A DNA stretch of 54,424 nucleotides from Prasinococcaceae sp. CCMP 1430 (lineage: Eukaryota; Prasinodermophyta; Palmophyllophyceae; Prasinococcales; Prasinococcaceae): contig RQSC01001207.1 of the NCBI GenBank assembly GCA_013416795.1, forward strand, positions 181,893 to 236,316. Direction: 5' to 3'. Below are positions 17,644 to 53,547 of this stretch, piece after piece; within the stretch, counting starts at the first letter, position 1; each line of letters opens with the position of its first letter. The notes under the pieces are model-generated. The model saw only the letters and a program-made list of their open reading frames with translations, did no database searches and was not told the DNA's origin. The position numbers were made by a program, and so were the translations under genes.

Positions 17644-19032
17644 CTACGCCGTCGAGATGGAGATGGCCGGCGCCGCGGGCGCTTGCGACACCTGCTTGAC
17701 CGCATCCGATCTGCCTCGGGCGTTTCCGCGTCTCCTCCTCCACCAGCTCACGCCGAGAGCAGCCGCCAACGCAGCCGCCAACGCCGCGCCACCCCCTGCG
17801 AGCCCCGCCACCAGCTGTGCCGAGCCGCCGCTGGTCGTCTGAGCGCTCACCGCGGCACCGTCTGCCCCCGCGCCCTGCTGATGTAGTTGTGCCGAATCGC
17901 CGCTGCTCGTCTGCACTTCCATCGTGGCACCGCCTGTCCCTTCGACCTGCAGATGCTGCGAGCACGCGCCGACGTCGAGCCGTACGAGCTCGTCACTTCC
18001 GTAGCCAACGGACACGAGCGCCTCGAACGCGTCGGCGAAGTCCTCCAGCCAGGCTGTGTTGTTGTCGGCGTAGCGGTCGACGATGGCGCGCGTTTGCGGA
18101 AACGGCTCGCACTGGCCCCGCTCGCCACACTGATGCGCGCGCGCGTTTGCGCTCGAGTGGACGTCGTAGGCGAGCGTCATGTCCGCGTCGAGCATGAGCC
18201 GCGTGGTGGGACCGCGCTGCCAGTTCGAGCCCGTCCCGCCCGGAGCATCGCGCCGGGCCCATCGTTTGTCGACGAGCTCGATGAAGTAGGCGTTGTCGAG
18301 CACGGCGGGCCGCGGCGTCCACGAACTCTCGCTCGCAAAGCCGACGCCGCTACAGCTGGGGCGCGCGTGCCCCAGCGTGTGCGCACCAAAGAGGGCCACG
18401 CCCTGCGCGAGCGTCAGCCCGAGCTGGTCCTCGAAGTACGTGCGTAGCACCTCCAAGTCAGCGTGCGCAGATGGCAGCCGCCCTGCGCCTGCCTCGCAGC
18501 CCGCAGCGCCGGCGTCGACGCGACCGTAGGACCAGCCGAGCCGCGCGTCGAGCATCCCCGTCGGATCGGCTGCGACGAGCGCCTCGCGCGCGAAGAGCGC
18601 CCACGCGTCTGCGCGGCCCACCAGCGCGCAGTGCCGCCGCCAGAGAGGCTCCAGAGCGGCCGCGACTGCGCTGCCCGCGTGCAGCAGCCCCTCGTTGTCC
18701 GAGCGGCCATTGTGCACGACCGCGCGGCTCAGACAGCCGTCAGCCCCGAGGCGCTCGCCCGGCGGCGCAGACGCGTCGTACTCCCCAACGTCATGGAATG
18801 CCAGTCGCACGGCGCCCCCGAGCAGGGCAGCGCGCGCGTTGGCGTCGGCGCGTGCCGTCGCTGCGAACGCGCGTGCGAAGCCCTCGCGCAGCTCCTCGTA
18901 CACGCCGCACGCCTCCTCGGCGCCCGAGCGCGCGTGCAGCTGCCCCGCGCCGCCCGCCGCGCAGGGCTCGTCGGAGATCCTCCCCCCGCTCGCCGCCACC
19001 GCCGGGCACACGCGCTCGCGCGACGACGCCAT
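17644..19032 (-). CDS. Haem peroxidase (plant/fungal superfamily) with C-terminal membrane anchor
   Basis: A single exon, 462 residues from [15 protein letters not shown]. The distal site is [12 protein letters not shown] (Arg and His for peroxide cleavage). The proximal haem ligand is the His of [13 protein letters not shown]. Between them are the Ca-site-like [20 protein letters not shown] and [20 protein letters not shown]. The catalytic domain ends near residue 370. It is followed by two imperfect Gly/Ser/Gln-rich repeats ([25 protein letters not shown]) and a hydrophobic helix, [16 protein letters not shown], with an Arg-rich stop-transfer. The sequence lies between class I (APX/CcP) and class II features; substrate is unknown. 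The frame stays open upstream to 19209, but that part reads through the 71-base repeats, so the later start was chosen. Confidence 0.87.
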
Positions 19033-19134
19033 CGCCGCCGGCGCCGGCGTGTGCCTCGCACACGCCCGCGCGCGCTGTGGCAAGCTCCCCCCGCCGCGTG
19101 GGGGAACCCGCGCGCCGCGCGCGACCGCGAAAAA

Positions 19135-19254
19135 GCATGCGAAAACGCCATCAAACGATGCATGCGAAGTTGCCATCAGAATCAACAGGCGGCCGGCGCG
19201 AAAAGGCATGCGAAAACGCCATCAAACGATGCATGCGAAGTTGCCATCAGAATC
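19135..19254. repeat. Two tandem copies of a 71-base unit upstream of the peroxidase gene
   Basis: A 49-base block beginning GCATGCGAAAACGCCATC occurs at 19135-19183 and again, identically, at 19206-19254. A degenerate third copy is near 19288-19315. Related sequence appears in reverse orientation at 11823-11848 and weakly at 34107-34130, each in the shared upstream region of a divergent gene pair. Confidence 0.9.
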
Positions 19255-19498
19255 GGCTTCGGAGGTCTCTCATCAAAGCCGTGTCGAAAACGCATGCGAA
19301 CGCGCCATCAGAAACGCGCGAGGCGACGGCGACTGCGATGACAGCTCGCCGCGCGCGCGCGCGCGGGGGCGCGCGCGCGCAGGCCGCGGCCGCCGCCGCC
19401 GCCAGCGGCGCGACGCGCCTCTGCGCTCTTTTTTGCGCGAGAAAGCGCTCGGTGGAGGCGGCTCGCCCGCTGACGCGGAGGGGGCACCAGCCGCAGCA

Positions 19499-20320
19499 AT
19501 GGGCCGTGGCGGGCAGGGGCCGACGGCGCATTCGCCCGTGTCGGCATGCCCCACCTCAGCTGGCAGTGAGGCCCTCCAGGGCGAAGCACAGGCGCAGCCG
19601 AGCTCGAAGGCGTACCTGCAGATCAGCCGCGAGCGCTACGGCGACCGTGTCACTGTGCACTGCGAGGACCCGCTGATCTTTACAATCGCGAACTTCCTGA
19701 GCGATGACGAGTGCGACGCGCTCATCGATTCCTCGGACGGACGGCTTGCCCGCGCGCCGGTTGTGGGCAAGGGCCAGACGGTGAACTCGTTCGGCTACGT
19801 GCAGGGCGAGAGCGCAGGGCGCACCAGCACCACGTGCACTCTGGCCAAGTCCGAGGTGCCATGGTACGTCGAACGCATCGAGGAGCTCACCGGCTTGCCG
19901 CGCACGCACCAAGAGGCTCCTCAGGTTGGGCGCTACGAGCCTGGCCAGCGCTTCAATTCGCACTTCGATGCGGTCGAGCCCAACAGTGACATCGGGCGCA
20001 AGTTCTTGCAGAACGGAGGGCAGCGGATCTGCACAGTGCTCTCGTACCTCAACACGCCAGACCCTCCGAAGGCCTTCCGCCGCGGCCGCGGTGGCCACAC
20101 TACCTTCAGATCGATGGAAGTCTCCGTGGAGGCCGTGAAGGGTACTGTTCTCGTGTTCTTCCCTGCCTACCTTGACGGCTCGCTCGACAAGCGCACGCTG
20201 CACAGCGGCGATCCGCCCCGGCACACTCCAAAGTGGGTGAGCCAGGTGTGGGTCCGCCAGAGCGGCAACAGGCGCGACGCTGCCCCCTCGCGTCGCTTTT
20301 GCGAGGGCCTGTACTACTGA
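19499..20320 (+). CDS. Prolyl 4-hydroxylase-type 2-oxoglutarate/Fe(II) dioxygenase
   Basis: A single exon, 273 residues from MGRGGQGPTAHSP. The P4H-alpha catalytic domain begins with IFTIANFLSDDECDALID. The iron site is visible as the H-x-D pair in GQRFNSHFDAVEPN and the distal His in RTLHSGDPP. The downstream PKWVSQVWVR segment is where the 2-oxoglutarate-binding basic residue is expected in the family. The family hydroxylates prolyl residues in secreted or cytosolic proteins using O2 and 2-oxoglutarate. No signal peptide or transmembrane anchor is seen in this short form, unlike plant P4Hs. An upstream extension of the frame overlaps the 71-base repeats and is not used. A secreted proline-rich protein is encoded 22 kb away, but no link is implied. 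Confidence 0.88.
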   Translation: MGRGGQGPTAHSPVSACPTSAGSEALQGEAQAQPSSKAYLQISRERYGDRVTVHCEDPLIFTIANFLSDDECDALIDSSDGRLARAPVVGKGQTVNSFGYVQGESAGRTSTTCTLAKSEVPWYVERIEELTGLPRTHQEAPQVGRYEPGQRFNSHFDAVEPNSDIGRKFLQNGGQRICTVLSYLNTPDPPKAFRRGRGGHTTFRSMEVSVEAVKGTVLVFFPAYLDGSLDKRTLHSGDPPRHTPKWVSQVWVRQSGNRRDAAPSRRFCEGLYY

Positions 20321-45000: not shown

Positions 45001-46267
45001 CGCCACGAGCGGCCTGTGGGCGCCCGCGCAGATCGTCCTGACGGACACCGTCGGCAACCAGCGCTTCGCCGGCACCAACGACTTTGGCTGGCGCCTGCAC
45101 GTGGACAATCCGCTTGAGGACAAGGCCGCACCTCTGTACATCGAGGGCTCGCTCACGGCGACCAGCGTCGAGGACGTGCTTGAGGGGCACGCCGTGCACA
45201 ACTTCGTCGCCAGTTGGCTGCTGCTGGAGAAGAACGATGTCGACTACACGTACATGCGCGTTGTCAGCGATCAGCCGGGGCAAAACACGTACGGGATGCA
45301 GGAGTACGGCAGCGTCGTCGCCAGCGACGAGTGCAGCGGCTACGCCACGCCGGCGGGCGTCGACACGGCCGTGGTGTGCTACCGTGCGACGCTCAGCACC
45401 GTCCTGACGGAGTTTCAGTGGCCTGGCAACTACTCCGTGTCGGAGATCACCATGCAGGACGAGGCGCTCAGGAAGGCCAGCACGACCTTCCTCGATCAGG
45501 CGGGCCACCAGCCGCCCGTGCTGGTGGAGATCGAGCCGCCCAATCCGGATCGCACGGCGCCCGAGCTGGACGTCCGCGTGGGATACCTGAACGTGAGTGC
45601 GGCGCCCACCAACCCCGAGGCGCCCAACGGCGAGACGTTGGTGCGCATCGAGTACTTCGCGCGCGACGACAAGTCCGGGCTGGGCCACGTGAACTACCGA
45701 CTGCTCGACCCGCAGGGCACATCCCACTTCGAGTACCACTACCACGACAACTTCCACACCACCTTTTTCCAGGGCGACCCCACCGCGTGGGCGCCGTACG
45801 TCATCACCGTGGTGCTGCCCGCCGGCAGCGCGCCCGGCATCTGGGGCCTCGAGTCGATGGAGCTGGAGGACAAGGTGGGCAACACGCTCTCGCAGTCCTT
45901 CGTGGAGAACGTGCACTTCGTGGCCGGCGGCGCGCGGCGCAGCCTCGCCGGCGGCGGGCGGCGGACGCTCGCCGGCGCGATCGCCGCAGCCTGCGGAGGA
46001 GGAGGAGCCGTCGGCGCATCCGCCGTCGCGGGATGGGCACGCCCTCCTCCTCACGCGATGCGTGGCGGCCGCGGCGGCGAGGGCGGGCGCACAGCTGCTC
46101 AGCGGCGACGAATCGAATGCGCTCGGTGCCCTCGCAAATGCACCGGAGCGAGCGCAAAAACTGTACTGGCGGCTCGCTGCGCGCCGCGCGCCGCGTGCGT
46201 GGGTGCGCCTGCGCTCGCTGCGCGCGGCCGCCGACGCCGATGGCGGCGCCGAGAGCGCGGCGTCTGA
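42079..46267 (+). CDS. Large secreted proline-rich HEXXH metalloprotease
   Basis: Exons 42079..44511 and 44609..46267 join in phase 0 (GTCCGT donor, CTCAG acceptor), about 1363 residues if the final stop is correct. A signal peptide (LAAALLVVAALAGALG) is followed by a Lys-rich linker, two 47-residue Cys-rich repeats (six Cys each), and a long SPPPPSS-type region (residues ~235-340). The catalytic region has IRHLRRLILHEKAHFMW (HEKAH, residues 754-758). Fifty-odd residues later comes GWSTTEQTTFVTAYAHEKNPDEDM-AESLSYYVENP, an EXXAE element completed by splicing; HEXXH...EXXAE is the gluzincin zinc site. Three beta-sandwich-like segments follow, each with a D-x-x-GN turn. The C-terminus is uncertain because it overlaps FAN1 in another frame. 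A wall or extracellular-matrix protease is likely; substrate unknown. Confidence 0.8.
42392..42675 (+). repeat. Tandem 141-base repeat encoding Cys-rich modules
   Basis: Two nearly identical in-frame units with a 141-base period (anchors at 42409 and 42550). Each encodes DLTCSKPKKGKCRDAGCACANKKCKKC flanked by proline-rich sequence. The near identity suggests a recent duplication inside the metalloprotease gene. Confidence 0.92.
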
Positions 46268-48086
46268 GCTCGGTGCGGCGGGATTGGTCTCTCTCGCTCG
46301 AGCTGGCCCAGATGACGGTAGCATGCCGACCAAGGAGCTCCTTGGGGCGCTCACGGTCGCCGAGCTGCGCGCTGTCGCGCGCGCCGCCAATGTGGCGCTC
46401 CCGCCTGGCGCCGACCGGGCAATGCTCATCGCCTGCATTGGCGCGCATGCCGCACAGCGGCCCGCCTTCGCTGGCAAAGGTTCGGCCACACCGGACACAG
46501 CTGTGCGGGCGGCGGCGCTGGCAGAGGCAGGACCGTTGGGGCGGCTGACGGATGCGGCGGCGGACGCGGCAGCACGGGGCACGTTCTTGTACTTTCTCGA
46601 CCACGCCGCGGGCCTGAGCACGCTCTTTGTCGCCTCGCGAGGCGTCGTGCGATTTGCTGTTCCCGAGGGCAGCCTCGCCGAAGAGCCGGGCGCCCTCGCT
46701 TTGCTGGCATTTCCTGGGGGACGTGTCGACTTGCTTCGCTACGAGGAGGCGCGCGCTGATCGCCTGCTGATCGAGGCGCTCGCGGGCCGCCGCGCAAACG
46801 ACGCCAGCGAAGCCCAGGACGCCGTGGCGCAATCACAAGCGGCGAGTATGAGCGCAGAGCAGGCGCTGCACGTGGCACGCGCCGCCATCGCCGCCTTCCG
46901 CGACTGTCCTGGCTCGGAGGTGCCACCTCGCCGCCCCGAGGCATGCCCGGCCAGGCCGCTCTTCCTTGCCCGCTACAGCTCGGGATGGCAGCGTGCGCGG
47001 GCCGCGTGGTTGGCCGTGTCGCTGCTCGAGGGCGCGCGCGAGTACAGCGAAGCCGTCGGTGCGCTTGAGGCGCTCCTTCGCTGTGGCTGGTGCCTGCACA
47101 AACGCGGCGACATGTGGTATCGCCTCGCAGTGGATCTTACCCATCTTGGCAATTGCGAGGCGGCACTCAGCGCCGCAGAATCAGCTGTGGACGATCCTTG
47201 GGTGCGAGGTGGGACCCTGGTTGCAGCGCAGCGTCGCGTCGCCCGCATGGCACGGCCGCCTCTGCGCGATGCGCATCACGCCGCAGCCTACCGTCTCATG
47301 ACTGCTGGCACCGATCCGAGCGAGACGATCGTGCACGCGCGGCCACTCGAACAGCTCGACGATGCCCCGAATGCGCGCTCGCGCTTCTACGGAAGCTCGG
47401 GGGATGTGATGAGTGTTGAGCAGGTCGTCCTTGAGCACTACGCGGCTCCCGAAAACGGCGGCTGGCGCGGGTGCCACGATGAGGGTGGCACATTGCGCAC
47501 GCTCTTCGGGCTCTTGCTCTGGGATGCGCTCTTTGACACCTCGATCCCGCACGCCTTTTCAACGCGCTTCCAGCTCGCGCCGCTCGACCTGATGGCCGAG
47601 TCGTTCGCTCCGGCCCGCGAGGAGCGCATCGCCTCGGTGCTCGAAATGGTTCGCGCAGGGGGCGCTCCAGAGGCGGTGCGCGCTGCATGGGACGCGCATG
47701 AGGGTGCCATGTGCACAGGCGTGAGCTGGGAGCGGCACGAACGCGACGACCTCGTGCAGATCGCAGAATGCATAGGGGGGGAGGCGCTCGCTGGTGTGCT
47801 GCAGCTGCTCGCCGATGACTACAGCGCATGGTCATCGGGAATGCCAGACCTGTTGCTGTGGAGTCCGTGCGACGGTGATGGGGGGCGCAAGAGTCGCGCT
47901 CGCCTGGCCGAGGTGAAGGGGCCCAATGATGCCCTGAGCGAGCAGCAGCGCGCGTGGTGTGCGGCGCTGCGTCGCGCTGGATGCGACGTCGAGGTGACAA
48001 AGGTCCGCGCCCCGCCAAAGCGCCCAGCTGCCGGAGGATTCGCAAGCTGGAAGGCAAACAGTGGCAAGCGCCGCGCCAGGCGGTGA
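45990..48086 (+). CDS. FAN1: FAN1-type structure-specific nuclease (SAP plus VRR-NUC); first exon unresolved
   Basis: The visible exon begins near 45990 after a CGCCGCAG acceptor-like site. It is coding from PAEEEEPSAHPPSRDGHALLL, continues AGAQLLSGDESNALGAL and APERAQKLYWRLAARR, and then has a SAP-like region (PTKELLGALTVAELRAVARA). TPR-like helices follow (WQRARAAWLAVSLLEGAREYSEAVGALEALLR). The C-terminal VRR-NUC nuclease (DTSIPHAFSTRFQLAPLDL, then GMPDLLLW and RARLAEVKGPNDALSEQQRAWCAALRRAGCDVEV) keeps the Asp and the ExK of the PD-(D/E)xK site. FAN1 cuts 5' flaps during interstrand crosslink repair. There is no N-terminal ubiquitin-binding zinc finger in the visible part. The first in-frame start-like codon is GTG at 46062; the first ATG (46323) would cut conserved sequence, so a 5' exon must exist. 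Confidence 0.88.
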   Translation, partial: PAEEEEPSAHPPSRDGHALLLTRCVAAAAARAGAQLLSGDESNALGALANAPERAQKLYWRLAARRAPRAWVRLRSLRAAADADGGAESAASELGAAGLVSLARAGPDDGSMPTKELLGALTVAELRAVARAANVALPPGADRAMLIACIGAHAAQRPAFAGKGSATPDTAVRAAALAEAGPLGRLTDAAADAAARGTFLYFLDHAAGLSTLFVASRGVVRFAVPEGSLAEEPGALALLAFPGGRVDLLRYEEARADRLLIEALAGRRANDASEAQDAVAQSQAASMSAEQALHVARAAIAAFRDCPGSEVPPRRPEACPARPLFLARYSSGWQRARAAWLAVSLLEGAREYSEAVGALEALLRCGWCLHKRGDMWYRLAVDLTHLGNCEAALSAAESAVDDPWVRGGTLVAAQRRVARMARPPLRDAHHAAAYRLMTAGTDPSETIVHARPLEQLDDAPNARSRFYGSSGDVMSVEQVVLEHYAAPENGGWRGCHDEGGTLRTLFGLLLWDALFDTSIPHAFSTRFQLAPLDLMAESFAPAREERIASVLEMVRAGGAPEAVRAAWDAHEGAMCTGVSWERHERDDLVQIAECIGGEALAGVLQLLADDYSAWSSGMPDLLLWSPCDGDGGRKSRARLAEVKGPNDALSEQQRAWCAALRRAGCDVEVTKVRAPPKRPAAGGFASWKANSGKRRARR

Positions 48087-48151: not shown

Positions 48152-48736
48152 TCAGGTCAGTGCCTCGGTGTCATTGTCGCCCGAGCTTCTCCATCGCACG
48201 CGCAGTCCCTCTGCGTCTTCGGCGCGTGTCTCGTGCCAGTGCGCGAGAGCGCGCTCGACGGCGCGCTTTCGGCCCTGCAGCCCTGAGCCGTAGCCCGACC
48301 GCCTGCGCTTGCCGTCTGGATGGCGCACGCGCCATTCGAACGATAGCGCATGTTCCCACGACGCAAAGCCCTCTACAACCCCCGCCAGCCTCCAGCTTGC
48401 CCCGCGTCCGCGTGTAGAGCGCGCGCCGCCCGCGAGCTCCCCATTGTGCTGCCTGAGGCGTCTTGTCACATCTTTGGTGGCGCCGACATAGGTGCGCGCT
48501 CCTGGCCTCACCGGCGGGCTCGCGGGCGATTCAATCACATACACAAGCCCCGCGGCCTCGGCTGGCGGGGGCGCCAGTCCTCCTTCCGCGCTGCTGTCCA
48601 CGTGCTCCTCTCCCTCAGCGGCACCGCGCTCACGTTCGCGCTCACGCCCGCCTGGCGCCGCGGCCGCCTTCCTCGCCGCCCTCCTTGCGCCAGCCACCCG
48701 CCCTGCAAACGACGTCCCTCGCACCGCTGCGATCAT
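48152..48736 (-). CDS. GIY-YIG nuclease-domain protein, SLX1/YhbQ-like
   Basis: From ATG 48736 (MIAAVRGTSFAGRVAG) 194 residues. The GIY-YIG core is LVYVIESPA (opening strand), GARTYVGATKDVTRRLRQHNGEL (YVG and catalytic Arg), STRGRGASWRLAGVVEGFASWEHALSFEWRVRH (with the metal-binding Glu in the ALxxEW helix). This string is typical of SLX1 and the UPF0213/YhbQ nucleases. The PHD/RING finger of true SLX1 is absent. Upstream the frame stays open to 48853 and an acceptor-like site (GGGCTGACTGGCAG) lies near 48870, so a 5' exon is possible. It is tail-to-tail with FAN1, 65 bases apart. Confidence 0.8.
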   Translation of the reverse strand: MIAAVRGTSFAGRVAGARRAARKAAAAPGGRERERERGAAEGEEHVDSSAEGGLAPPPAEAAGLVYVIESPASPPVRPGARTYVGATKDVTRRLRQHNGELAGGARSTRGRGASWRLAGVVEGFASWEHALSFEWRVRHPDGKRRRSGYGSGLQGRKRAVERALAHWHETRAEDAEGLRVRWRSSGDNDTEALT

Positions 48737-49087
48737 TCGAAGCAGCCTGCCGGCGCCTCCAAGCCCCCTCGCTCGAGCTTGCGCGCCCACTCGCCCTGCC
48801 GGTCGCGCCGCGCTGTGTGGCGTCGCAATGGGGCGAGGGACGCGCAAGCGCACGGACTGCCAGTCAGCCCAAAATACAAACCCTACTTGTAAACCCCAAT
48901 ATGGCTTGCTTGCCCACAGCGGCGCATGGACCTGGAGCCCTCATCTGGTCGCGGGTTGGCGCTGGCAGGCGCACGCATAGCGAGGGCCAGGGCGCCTAGT
49001 AGCCAGGGCGCGCTCATTTGTACTGTAGCACATGTAGTATGACAAAATTCACAACAATAGCATGCACACCAAGAGGCTGCTCGGCCT

Positions 49088-52000
49088 CTATATCTCCCTG
49101 TGCCGCTTAGAGCTACCGCGCTCGTCGCTCCTCTTGCGTTTCTTGTGGGGCTTAGCTTTCTCCTTCTTCTCCTTCTTTTCCTTCTTCTCCTTCTTCTCCT
49201 TCTTCTCCTTCTTCTCCTTCTTCTCCTTCTTGGCCGCCCGTTCTTTCTGCCTCTTCTGTTTATTGGCCTGCCTATTCGGCTCCTCCGTGCAGCTGCTGGT
49301 GATACGGAGCGTTAGAGAAGATTTCAAGTGCGAATGCGCGCGCGCGATTGGTGCCGGAACGAGCTCATCGCAACGCGTCGCGCACACTTACCCTGTGTCG
49401 CCAGCGGTGAGCTCCCACACGCTGAATCTACCATCCGACGCACGAATTTTGCAAAAGTCAAATGGGCGCCCCGTGCCGACACCGCCCGTCCATTCGCACA
49501 CCATGAGGCCGAGCGGGACGTAGCACTGTGTCACGGCGAAGAGCTTGCCGCCCGCGCGGAGGTAGCGTGCGGCACCACACACGAGCTCGCGCGCGACACT
49601 GAAGTCCGTGTGGGCACCATTGTGTACGGGCGGGTTGCTCACCACCCAGTCGAGGCTGCCAGGCGATAGGGCTGCACCCGAAGAGCCGCCTTCCACCCCC
49701 TTCCAGCCGTCGCTCACCAGCACAGTCGCTTGGGGCACATTGAGCGCGCAGGCGCTCGCAGCAGCGGCACACGCGTCCAGTGCGTACACCTTCGCGCCAT
49801 CCCCACCTTCACTGTCGCCTCGCGTGGCTTCGCACAGCGCTGCAGCGACCGCGCCCGAGCCGCAGCCGAAATCGAGCACGCGTGCCTCATCGTGCGACGG
49901 GAGGGAGCAGGGCAGGTTGCGCACGAGGAAGCGCGTCATGTCATCGGCCCGGCCGCCCGCGAAGAGCCCTGGGAGCGTCACCCAACCCGCAACCGCACGC
50001 TCCTCCTCGTGGCCGCATCGGGGCAACGCCATTGCGATCGTCTCCTTGTAGGCAGCCGCGCCCAGGTCGCCGTCGGCCAAGCGCGCTTTCTTCGACTTGC
50101 GGCGCTTGAAGGCGGCGGCCAAGCCCATGCCGGCGTTCACCTTGACCATACCCCCCCGCGCCTTCCAGAGCGCGCCAAGCTCGCCTTCACTCGCCGCAGT
50201 GAGCATGGGGCCCGCACCTTCTGCGGTAGCGCCGCAAGCCCACAGCGTCGCACCGGGCGATGTGACGTCGGCGACAGCTCTGAGCGCCATGGCCGCAGCG
50301 TCACGCGCAGCTGGTAGGCGCAAGACGACTACCGAGTACAGGGCGCTGCTGCTAGGGGGGGGCGGCCAGTCCGTCGCACCCTCCGCGCCCTCTGCGTACG
50401 GCCGCCAGCGGGTAACTCGCGCACCCGCCTCTGTGGCTGCAGTCTCGGCCGCGTCTGCGTATCTGCCAGCAACAAGCACGCCCCCATCGGATTCACCGCC
50501 CAAATCTTTGCCTGTCTCCACGAGTGTGCCCCACCCGCCACGTTCGCGCGCCGCCAGAGCCTCCAGCGCTGCGAGTGCGCTATCGTCGCCGTCACTCGCG
50601 CCAGCCTGCGCCGCCTCCAACGCAACACACGCACAGGATGCCATGGCGTCGCGCAGAGCAAACACGCTTGCGAGCACGCGCGCGCGCGATGCCTCGTCCG
50701 CACCATCGCTCAGAGCTGTCATGCGCATGTGCACCGCCCAGCACGCGTACTCGAAGCGGCCGAGCGCCTGCCAGTCCGCACCGCCGCTGCCGCCGCTGCT
50801 ACGACTGGTAGGAGCCGCAGCCACTACTGTGCCTCTGGCGGCGTCAATGAGCGCCAACACCCACGGTGCGTCGGTCCATTCCAACGCGTCTGCCCTCACA
50901 CTCATCGCCCACGCCATGTCAGCCGCATCGGCGGCCGAGAGGCCGCGCAATGCACCGCCATGGACAGTGTCACGCGCATGCTGGCACATTATGGCAGCCC
51001 TGAGCAGTGCTTCAGCATCCACGCCGAGTTTTGCCGCGCCCCACGCTCCCATCGCGAGCGTGCGCACGTTGGCGAATGCGCCACCTCGCGCGCGCTCGGC
51101 CGCATGCTCGAGGAGCGCGTGCGCTGCCGCGCTGGCCGATGCCGGCAGGCTGCTGCTGGTGTCGCCGGCGTCAACCCCACCGTGTTCGAGTGCGCCGCCT
51201 TCGATGGCGCGCGCACCGCCGCAGCGCATGCGCGCGACCGCCCAAAGGCACGTCGCGAGCGCCTGCGGATTCATGCGTGGCGCACACGCGCGCATCGCCT
51301 CCTCTAGTGCTCCCGCCGTCGCGTTGGCAACGCCGGCGCCCTCCCCACCATCGCCCGCAAATACTGTTGTCCAGTCGCACGCAAGGGAGGCCGTCGCCCA
51401 CGCGGTCATGCTGAGCTCCTGCGGCATGTAGTGCAGCTCGCGCGCGCAGCGCAGCGCCGCCTCCAATGCCGCAGAGCGCGCGTGCCGACACTGTGGGCGC
51501 GAGTGCGCCTTCGCGAGCCCCCACAGCGCGGTAGATACATCGCGCTCGTTGAATTGCGGCGCGGCCTTCACGAGCCGAGCCTCGAGTGCAGCCTGCAATG
51601 CGGCGGTACTGCAGGCCCCGCTGATAGAGGAGTCCGCACCGGCATCCCCCGTGAGCTTGCCGACAGCCCACATGGCGGTGGCTACGCCGCGCGCGTCGAA
51701 CGTCGCCGCTTCTGCAGTTGCGGCGCGAAGAAGAGCTTGGAGCGGCGCGCGCAATTGGCCCTGCCCCGGCGCCTGCGCTGCTGCCATCGCCGCTGCCAGT
51801 GTCGCCATTGACCACAGCGAAGACGTAATTTGTCTTGCGTTTAGCGTGCACTGATCGCGAGCGTCGTGTACGTCCTGGCCATGGCCACCGACGACGGCGC
51901 CCACTGTCGTCGCGATCGCTACCGCCGCAGCGAAGCTCGCGCGCAGATCGCCGTGCGCGCTGGAGCGCTTCGCAGCAGCGTTGAGCGCGTAGACGAGTGT

Positions 52001-52429
52001 GTCCACGGGCAAACACGCCGCGAGTGCGCCGCCACCTGCCGCGCGCTTGAGCACCCCAAGGACGTCATCGGCCTTGGCGGCTGCCGCAATGGAGCGCCGC
52101 AGCGCTGCCTGCGCGCGGCCGTCGTGCCGCTGCTGCTGCTGCTCCCGCAGCTGCTTCGGCCGCGGCTTCTGCACCTGCTGCTTCGGCGGCGCCTTGTCGG
52201 CCTTGTCTTGCGCCGCCCTTCCTGCTTCGCTGCCCTCTTCGACGGCCGCGGCGGCCTCTGTCTCGCCTACAGCCTGGACGAGCTGCGCCCTCAGCTCCGG
52301 CAGCCGTGCCGCCGCGGCTGCCTGTGCGGCGTCAAGTGCCGCCGGCGGGCGCGCCGCAAGCGCCGCGGCGGCCCGCACTTTCTTCCGCAGCGCGCGCGCC
52401 CACTTGTCGCCCGCCGCGCCCGCCGCCAT
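49088..52429 (-). CDS. Fusion of OPR-like helical repeats with an RsmC-type rRNA methyltransferase
   Basis: Exons 49392..52429 and 49088..49295 join in phase 2 (GTAAGT donor, TCACCAG acceptor), 1081 residues from MAAGAAGDKWARALRKK. Residues about 195-510 hold at least seven helical repeats with the core xxQxLaxxlWAlAxLx (ITSSLWSMATLA, VATAMWAVGKLT, VSTALWGLAKAH, LSMTAWATASLA, LATCLWAVARMR, LAMGAWGAAKLG, ADMAWAMSVRA). These resemble octotricopeptide/RAP-type organellar RNA-binding repeats. A degenerate methyltransferase lobe follows (ALYSVVVLRLPAARDAAAMALRAV), then an active lobe with motif I VLDFGCGSGAVAAAL (~residue 850) and motif IV VVSNPPVHNG (~930), the NPPF/VH form of RsmC (16S rRNA m2G1207). 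The last exon is a Lys/Glu tail from a 9-base repeat. An organelle rRNA methyltransferase is inferred; no clear transit peptide is visible. Confidence 0.82.
49159..49231 (-). repeat. 9-base tandem repeat (CTTCTCCTT type) encoding a Lys-Lys-Glu tail
   Basis: About eight units of CTCCTTCTT on the plus strand, encoding (KKE)n in the last exon of the methyltransferase fusion. The other frames give poly-Leu or poly-Phe/Ser open frames on the plus strand, which are artefacts. Confidence 0.95.
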
Positions 52430-52876
52430 CGCATGCGATGGGTGCGGCGTGCCGCAGCGCGCAGCCCGACGCAGCCCGCGCGCGCCGTGTGGCGCGGGCA
52501 GCCGCCGCTCGCTGCCCGCTGCGCGCAGCGCTCGCGCTCGGTGTAGGTTCAGGTTTAATAGCGCGTGATAAGGGTATTTAAGTAGGGTTTGAATATCTTG
52601 TCGCGCGGCTTTGGGATCATGACCGCAGCCCGCACACACAAAGATTTGGAGCGGTGCAGTAGGGGCAGCCGGCGACGCGCAGCGCCACACGCGCGCCTTT
52701 CCGCCCTCCCGTCCCCTCACGCCCCGCTGGAACGTCGCCCTTGGGTCCCACGAGTGCCCCTTCCCCGCTCTGTTGCCCGCCTGACTCGCACGCGCCAAGT
52801 AGGAGGTCGAGGCCTGTGTTGGTGCGAGGGTGCTGGCGGTTGCCCGCACGGCACGACATTTTTGTGCGCCGTCGCC
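52430..52876. promoter_or_regulatory. Divergent upstream region of the OPR-RsmC and Cys-rich genes
   Basis: An AT-rich island at 52540-52620 carries TAGGTTCAGGTTTAATAG, GATAAGGGTATTTAAG and TAGGGTTTGAATATC. ATCGCATGCGAT, a perfect 12-base palindrome, covers the bases around the methyltransferase start (52428-52439). The plus-strand frame is open through 52589-52876 but low-complexity, and is not taken as coding. Confidence 0.45.
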
Positions 52877-53547
52877 ATGGCTACGCGTGCGAGCGTACTC
52901 ATGGCGCTCTTGGCCCTTGGCCACGCGCCGCGCTCTGGCGCATTAGATGAGCCGCCTTACTTCTGCGATGACGTCTGCGAGGCGGGTGCCAGCGCTGTCG
53001 ACGGCGTCGCCTTCACCTCGTTCGTGAGCGTCACGCTGGTCAGGCCTTTCCAGCCAGATGAAGTGCTGCCTCAATGTCCCAACGGTCAGGACTTCACAGG
53101 GTTCTGTGAAGAGTCGCGCAGCCTCCTCGAGCCACTGTGTGCAAGCTGGTCCAACGAAAATAATTGCGTGCCGGGCACGGATGTGCCGACGACTTACTGC
53201 GGTATGCGATGCGAAGGCCCCTTCGAGGGCGCCACGCAGACTGGCGATGTGCGTGTCGTCTTCGACGATCAAAACGATCTCGATAGTCTGTGCCAGGCCG
53301 CCTGCGGCATTGTCGAGGCCGTGTGCAACGCCGGAGGAGGTGCGTGCGTGGTTGTGTCGCGTTCATGATCCTCCTGCTCGCGTCCCTTACCCAATGCGCT
53401 GCGTGAACTGACGAACTTGATACGCGCGAACGTGGAGGCGAGCTCACGTGCCTGGGCATCGTGAATCCGGGGCCACCAGCCCCTGAGCCACCAGCCCCAG
53501 GGCCACCAGCCCCAGGGCCACCAGCCCCCAAGCCTGCGCCTCTTTGA
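52877..53547 (+). CDS. Small secreted Cys-rich protein with proline-rich tail
   Basis: Exons 52877..53339 and 53438..53547 join in phase 1 (GTGCGT donor, GTGGAG acceptor, the latter weak), giving 190 residues. MATRASVLMALLALGHAPRSG is a signal peptide candidate. The mature part has about a dozen cysteines (FCDDVCEAG, LPQCPNG, GFCEESRSLLEPLCASW, NNCVPG, YCGMRCEG, LCQAACGIVEAVCNAGG), a spacing that suggests a disulfide-bonded extracellular domain. The second exon, GELTCLGIVNPG followed by four PPAP-type units (15-base repeats at 53469-53530), resembles wall-protein tails. No family is recognised. Without splicing the frame ends at 53368 after VVVSRS, so a shorter form is the alternative. Confidence 0.55.

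Follow-up and report, generated by a model that had tools for sequence, protein, structure and literature searches.

Can a single algal gene encode both a tract of OPR-type helical repeats and an rRNA methyltransferase, and on which ribosome would its product act? The question is raised by a gene for a protein here called P0001, which lies in a stretch of 54,424 nucleotides (the window) from Prasinococcaceae sp. CCMP 1430 (assembly GCA_013416795.1, contig RQSC01001207.1, positions 181,893 to 236,316). The gene and all of its features given below are on the minus strand, where a frame without stop extends over 49388-52942, with its first in-frame ATG at 52429 and the TAA stop at 49388-49390. 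An earlier note on this DNA had described one continuous frame that holds repeats and methyltransferase together, and this is borne out: the single open frame (49391-52429) has 1013 codons, is free of stops, and has similar GC contents at the three codon positions in both halves (0.75/0.61/0.76 versus 0.70/0.60/0.75), with GC along the window at 65-73%. The architecture of an OPR-type solenoid followed by an RsmC-type methyltransferase in one frame is thus supported. When the whole protein was compared by BLAST with its own 24.5-Mb, 145-contig assembly, a search limited to nine scored candidates, it matched only itself at E<=1.

Residues 641-1013 are a complete two-lobed methyltransferase of the RsmC type with the catalytic lobe at the C-terminus. 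The N-terminal, non-catalytic lobe (residues 641-800, 50030-50509) is supported by an alignment with E. coli RsmC, by BLASTP, in which the match to Aliidiomarina RsmC starts at residue 699, and by a structure match that spans residues 631-1011. The catalytic MTS lobe (residues 801-1013, 49391-50029) is recognized by the Pfam MTS profile at residues 817-969 with an E value of 4.8e-22. It contains the S-adenosylmethionine (SAM)-binding motif I VLDFGCGSG (residues 851-859, 49853-49879), of which D853, C856, G857 and G859 are invariant in 13 aligned sequences, and the active-site motif SNPPVHNG (residues 931-938, 49616-49639), of which S931, N932, P933, P934 and H936 are invariant in the same number. 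Motif I and NPPVHNG had been read as the RsmC signature; both are present and align with bacterial RsmC, and the comparison with the MTS and RsmC profiles also came out in favour, RsmC being the best match in NCBIfam (58.9 bits), though under the cut-off. RsmC is nearer than RlmG in NCBIfam (58.9 versus 18.6 bits) and in BLASTP (75.5 versus 53.1), and an RlmG identity was rejected on these lower scores. A tblastn search of plasmids with the methyltransferase half gave no match, and three matching loci on viral contigs were set aside as E. coli-like RsmC by their sequence ends. A scan of bacteria yielded 262 relatives, of which the best 80 of 262 were kept, mostly Enterobacterales by title; its patterns came from the E. 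coli RsmC alignment, and it has little bearing on the origin of the gene.

The helical repeat tract covers residues 142-572 (50714-52006), with nine predicted helical hairpins, six slots of which are statistically supported. In the N-terminal part of P0001 a core of the form F/M..Q/R.....LWAxAK recurs with an OPR-type periodicity. An OPR consensus found the Chlamydomonas mitoribosome protein mL115 as its best match in the PDB (E 1e-10), followed by lower matches to mL123, RESC6, a RAP protein of the Toxoplasma mitoribosome and many designed armadillo repeats. A profile of 17 columns that is independent of this genome was built from five mL115 repeats and this consensus, with no sequence from the alga itself. 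Its top five places in P0001 are W396, W344, W303, W206 and W254, and when residues 101-645 were shuffled 5000 times, no shuffle attained the scores observed at ranks 1 to 7; the place at rank 6 lacks a W, and W463 stands at rank 14. A profile from two mL115 sequences also put the five W-slots at ranks 1-5. When 279 frames of at least 200 residues, from the window and from the loci of the same genome in hand, were ordered by the sum of five places, the top four were P0001 and overlapping copies, and ranks five and six were taken by a RAP-domain open reading frame (ORF) of the same genome (L016/L009).

A leave-one-out version of the 17-column profile left six of the nine slots (206, 254, 303, 344, 396 and 463) unbeaten by any of 749 places, namely those not near another repeat. 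Shuffles matched the leave-one-out score in at most 25 of 1000 cases for five of these six slots, and in 201 of 1000 for W344. Slots 150, 507 and 564 failed, two of them (150 and 564) being also outside the training set. It should be noted that the 17-column core was picked after the weak result of a 38-column profile was known, in which five of eight repeats ranked first and only two of eight (303 and 463) were matched by at most 11 of 1000 shuffles. A first count by regular expression found eight cores against a shuffle mean of 1.36, with eight of 5000 shuffles as high, which is weaker than the profile test, and a 10-feature motif score that had been tuned by eye was discarded as evidence. 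The OPR-type core is thus placed at residues 194-467 (51029-51850; W206, W254, W303, W344, W396 and W463) by the leave-one-out and the mL115-based profiles, the latter without support for W463. The predicted model has all nine slots in helices, with a further helix after each of them, although slots seven to nine fall in a part of low confidence. Of the at least seven repeats announced in the earlier note, repeats beyond chance have held, but with six statistically clear the count was about one too high. Before residue 800, the Pfam matches are limited to two at chance level (E 0.53 and 4.8), each below its cut-off. This near-empty result is expected for OPR, since domain databases contain no description of the motif (PMC13126933). 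Pfam also gave no RAP match in P0001, RAP having been among the profiles proposed for comparison.

Which rRNA could such an enzyme modify? In E. coli, G1207 pairs with C1051. The target of E. coli RsmC is G1207 (PMC9083416). The model RF00177 has five small-subunit rRNA matches in the assembly (5/383 first-look candidates scored), and G1207 and C1051 are both kept in the mitochondrial one (L114 on contig C41). C41 is the mitochondrial genome, because it has the sole COX1 match of the assembly and because the 9.9 kb beside rns hold ORFs for ATP6, NAD1, NAD6, COX3, COX2 and NAD2 (recognized by eye) together with eight tRNAs. A second gene, L112 on contig C136, belongs to a plastid rRNA operon, since it is adjoined by rbcL and then by tRNA-Ile(GAU) and tRNA-Ala(UGC), and L113, also on C136, is by similarity a second plastid-type copy. 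In L112 and L113 the pair is exchanged in a compensated manner, with C at position 1207 and G at position 1051, and MAFFT and blastn concur on the bases at both positions. The match L116 covers model positions 55-353 only and stops short of 1207. As regards the 1207 site, the mitochondrion is thus a suitable location and the plastid is not, and a plastid location was rejected for this site only. The suggestion of an organellar rRNA target in the earlier note is accordingly plausible in general, and has found a suitable base in the mitochondrion, but for the 1207 site it does not hold for the plastid.

Two of these contigs deserve a remark of their own. The remaining match, L115 (C98, 205323-209761), agrees in every base with the mitochondrial rns region along 3.5 kb or more, with a flanking GC of 0.66 on one side. 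It probably reflects either mitochondrial DNA recently inserted into the nuclear genome or an assembly join, and an insertion would tie the mitochondrial genome on C41 to the GC-rich nuclear genome. Contig C136 (477 kb) carries two clearly different green-type plastid rbcL genes (L013 and L014), one of them beside an ORF that resembles NdhG by eye, as well as two plastid-type 16S genes and N gaps, which points either to organelle DNA from at least two algae or to a scaffolding error.

The explanation favoured here is that the gene gives rise, via a single mature mRNA, to one protein in which an OPR-type alpha-solenoid would be followed by a two-lobed RsmC-type guanine-N2 methyltransferase. This protein would be imported into the mitochondrion, where the solenoid would bind the small subunit, its rRNA or its precursor and keep the enzyme at helix 34, and the RsmC part would use SAM to methylate the guanine that corresponds to E. 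coli G1207 at its exocyclic N2. Taken as a whole, this chain of steps is given not quite an even chance. Bacterial RsmC works on assembled 30S subunits. OPR proteins hold rRNA in Chlamydomonas mitochondria (PMC8660880), and the Arabidopsis protein RAP binds the 5' leader of pre-16S rRNA (PMC4046486). A more specific version, suggested by analogy and regarded as doubtful, is that of a natural sequence-guided methyltransferase, in which the tract would read the mitochondrial rRNA or pre-rRNA and set the RsmC active site on one guanine, in the manner of PPR-DYW factors in editing; altered repeats would then alter the methylated site.

Several observations weigh against the mitochondrial explanation. 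The spacing of the seven W-slots from 206 to 507 is 48, 49, 41, 52, 67 and 44 residues, so that the tandem OPR length of about 38 residues is replaced by 41-67, and a three-repeat tandem OPR consensus (phmmer --max) misses P0001 at E<=10, whereas it finds the RAP ORF L009/L016. The tract is therefore named OPR-type and not canonical OPR; OPR motifs may have gaps between them (PMC5541062). A model of the repeats alone is poor, with a predicted local distance difference test score of 50, and all of its matches are to solenoids of a generic or designed kind; the Foldseek rows also include beta-catenin and designed repeat chains. The net charge of -4 over residues 100-645 is unexpected for an RNA binder. 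The N-terminus, which is Ala-rich (50% Ala, net +5 in the first 40 residues) and contains an amphipathic stretch, is only suggestive of import. The NCBIfam score of the methyltransferase is far under the equivalog cut-off of 295 bits of NF007023, and for this reason the domain is named RsmC-type and not an RsmC equivalog. The assembly has organelle DNA of mixed type, so that a common origin of the mitochondrial contig and the fusion gene in one organism is likely but not certain. Finally, a Lys-rich tail at the 3' end of the gene would, if real, favour a nuclear place.

The strongest rival explanation starts from this tail, a point absent from the account in the earlier note. The TAA stop lies inside a GTAAGT donor that opens a plausible 96-nt intron (49296-49391), a candidate recognized by its motifs GTAAGT...CTAAC...CAG, which come in order, with the end CACCAG. 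In-frame joining would add an exon 2 (49088-49295) with a Lys-rich tail of 69 residues, (KKE)n ... KPHKKRKRSDERGSSKRHREI, that contains 33 K/R and 14 D/E and includes KKRKR; the KKE repeats would be encoded by a 9-bp tandem array, TTCTCCTTC, of 8.2 copies with a period that is a multiple of three (49158-49231). The lower coordinate of the gene in the earlier note, 49088, corresponds to the end of this possible second exon, whereas the 1013-codon frame itself stops at 49388-49390. If the exon is real, the tail would direct P0001 to the nucleolus. There the solenoid would bind a nuclear RNA, either pre-rRNA or a different one, on which the RsmC part would make N2-methylguanosine (m2G). Such KKE/D tails are known in Nop56, Nop58 and Cbf5, and we take the tail of P0001 to resemble those of nuclear or nucleolar proteins; the N-terminus has no clear presequence, and in the 60 nt that follow the stop, the GC content is 0.47 for 49088 versus 0.68 for 49388 (over 100 nt, 0.52 versus 0.60). 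However, GTAAGT is rare in the window (3 and 3 copies), the complete triple of intron motifs occurs at chance level (2 found versus 2.5 expected in shuffles), and a second frame of the tail stretch is also rich in K/R (0.29 versus 0.36). The odds that the tail is real are about even. To our knowledge, no m2G is known at the 1207-equivalent position of 18S rRNA, which also counts against a nucleolar role. With OPR proteins described mainly as organellar (PMC13126933, PMC8635915), this explanation is regarded as unlikely.

Next comes the possibility that the protein is an organellar enzyme with another target, the solenoid having redirected the RsmC-type domain to some other guanine, in the plastid 16S rRNA, a large-subunit rRNA or an organelle mRNA. 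This too is judged improbable, since by sequence the domain is nearest to RsmC and the mitochondrial rns retains the canonical base.

A further alternative concerns the nature of the solenoid, which could be an ARM/HEAT-like protein-binding tract instead of an OPR tract, and thus a scaffold by which the enzyme is held on the ribosome or on a partner. The OPR consensus is matched by designed ARM repeats as well, in which LWAL is likewise present. A search of the PDB by hmmsearch with the repeat alignment A3, into which MAFFT had placed gaps and which was set aside, had two designed ARM proteins as its sole matches (E 0.16 and 1.2). ARM repeats have a length of 42, to which a spacing of 41-52 comes close. 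The profiles of the two families were compared with equal training size: the ARM profile, from two ARM sequences, puts W303, W396 and W206 at ranks 1, 2 and 3, but the five W-slots together occupy its ranks 1, 2, 3, 6 and 7, compared to ranks 1-5 with the OPR profile. The armadillo profile thus fits less well than the OPR profile, but not badly. For P0001, Pfam reported neither Arm nor HEAT at E values up to 10, with filters that remove most matches above 0.1, and the K/R at position +4 fits OPR, so that an ARM/HEAT-like tract is considered quite improbable. That two neighbouring genes have accidentally been read as one frame is very improbable, given 1013 codons without a stop, the similar codon-position GC on both sides, and the little space left for untranslated regions and a promoter between the end of the tract at about residue 572 and the start of the lobe at about 641, with predicted helices between.

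At the 5' end, a putative TATA-like element, TTAAATA (52575-52581), was read from the sequence about 150 nt upstream of the ATG, and an ORF on the opposite strand (52586-53368), the start of which looks like a signal peptide by eye, lies further upstream; together they leave little space for a long 5' exon. An out-of-frame ATG at 52434 on the minus strand, 5 nt before the start codon, opens a short Arg-rich frame to 52291, and translational control by this ATG is possible. Directly downstream of the fusion gene, a FAN1-type nuclease (VRR_NUC and FAN1_TPR; 45693-48083, plus strand) is arranged tail to tail with an ORF with a GIY-YIG nuclease domain (48155-48940, minus strand). Elsewhere in the window, a peroxidase-domain ORF (17647-19221, minus strand) overlaps a 2-oxoglutarate-Fe(II) oxygenase ORF (18530-20317, plus strand).

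OPR proteins are described as factors that bind organelle RNA to stabilise, process or activate it; with an OPR-type tract attached to an rRNA base methyltransferase, the family would gain a catalytic branch. The retention of G1207 in the mitochondrial rRNA and its loss in the plastid-type rRNA turn the vague idea of an organellar role into one clear yes/no question, and the contrast may bear on how rRNA modifications of bacterial origin are retained in organelles once the genes have moved to the nucleus. The earlier note knew of no described protein with this architecture, and among the matches listed, the literature likewise contained no OPR tract fused to RsmC or to another rRNA methyltransferase; four of the papers listed use these terms, but in other contexts. 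The word methyltransferase is absent from the excerpts of five OPR papers (PMC13126933, PMC8635915, PMC7729196, PMC8190603 and PMC8660880) and occurs in an unrelated sense in those of PMC10760936. In a 2026 survey of 1067 OPR candidates, RAP is the sole extra domain in the main-text table, with 163 proteins, and an InterPro-annotated Pfam domain is present in 219 candidates (PMC13126933); the supplements of this survey may include a similar fusion.

How, then, does P0001 compare with known systems? With RsmC (2pjd; T. thermophilus 2zul/3dmf) it shares the two lobes, LPGxF, motif I, SNPPxHxG and a complete C-terminus, with 28% identity in the alignment with the E. coli protein; it differs in scoring far under the equivalog cut-off and in its N-terminal helical tract of about 640 residues, which is lacking in the aligned bacterial proteins, in agreement with the view in the earlier note that bacterial RsmC consists of the methyltransferase lobes only. 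Like green-algal OPR proteins, for example mL115 (7pkt_O) and Polytomella mL123 (8a22_Xd), it has the F/M..Q/R.....LWAxAK core in register and predicted helical hairpins, but its spacing is 41-67 instead of 38, it is fused to an enzyme, and it is missed by the plain consensus. OPR-RAP and FASTK-type proteins also combine helical repeats with a C-terminal domain of another kind, which in P0001 is a methyltransferase, no RAP domain having been found by Pfam. In the same genome, only three RAP-domain loci were found, namely L009/L016 (C17), a RAP ORF with OPR repeats, L010/L017 (C133) and L011/L018 (C75), and one RAP locus resembles, by eye, a 5'-3' exonuclease-type protein with a terminal RAP domain. 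PPR-DYW editing factors follow the same logic, in that the domain which modifies the RNA is delivered to a single site by a repeat tract (PMC8394491). Their repeats and enzyme are unrelated to those of P0001, for which the reading of a sequence is putative. We know of no repeat tract in the chloroplast RsmD of Arabidopsis. Like P0001 in its proposed role, this enzyme is an organellar m2G methyltransferase that acts on small-subunit rRNA, although at a different site, G915 (E. coli 966) (PMC9083416).
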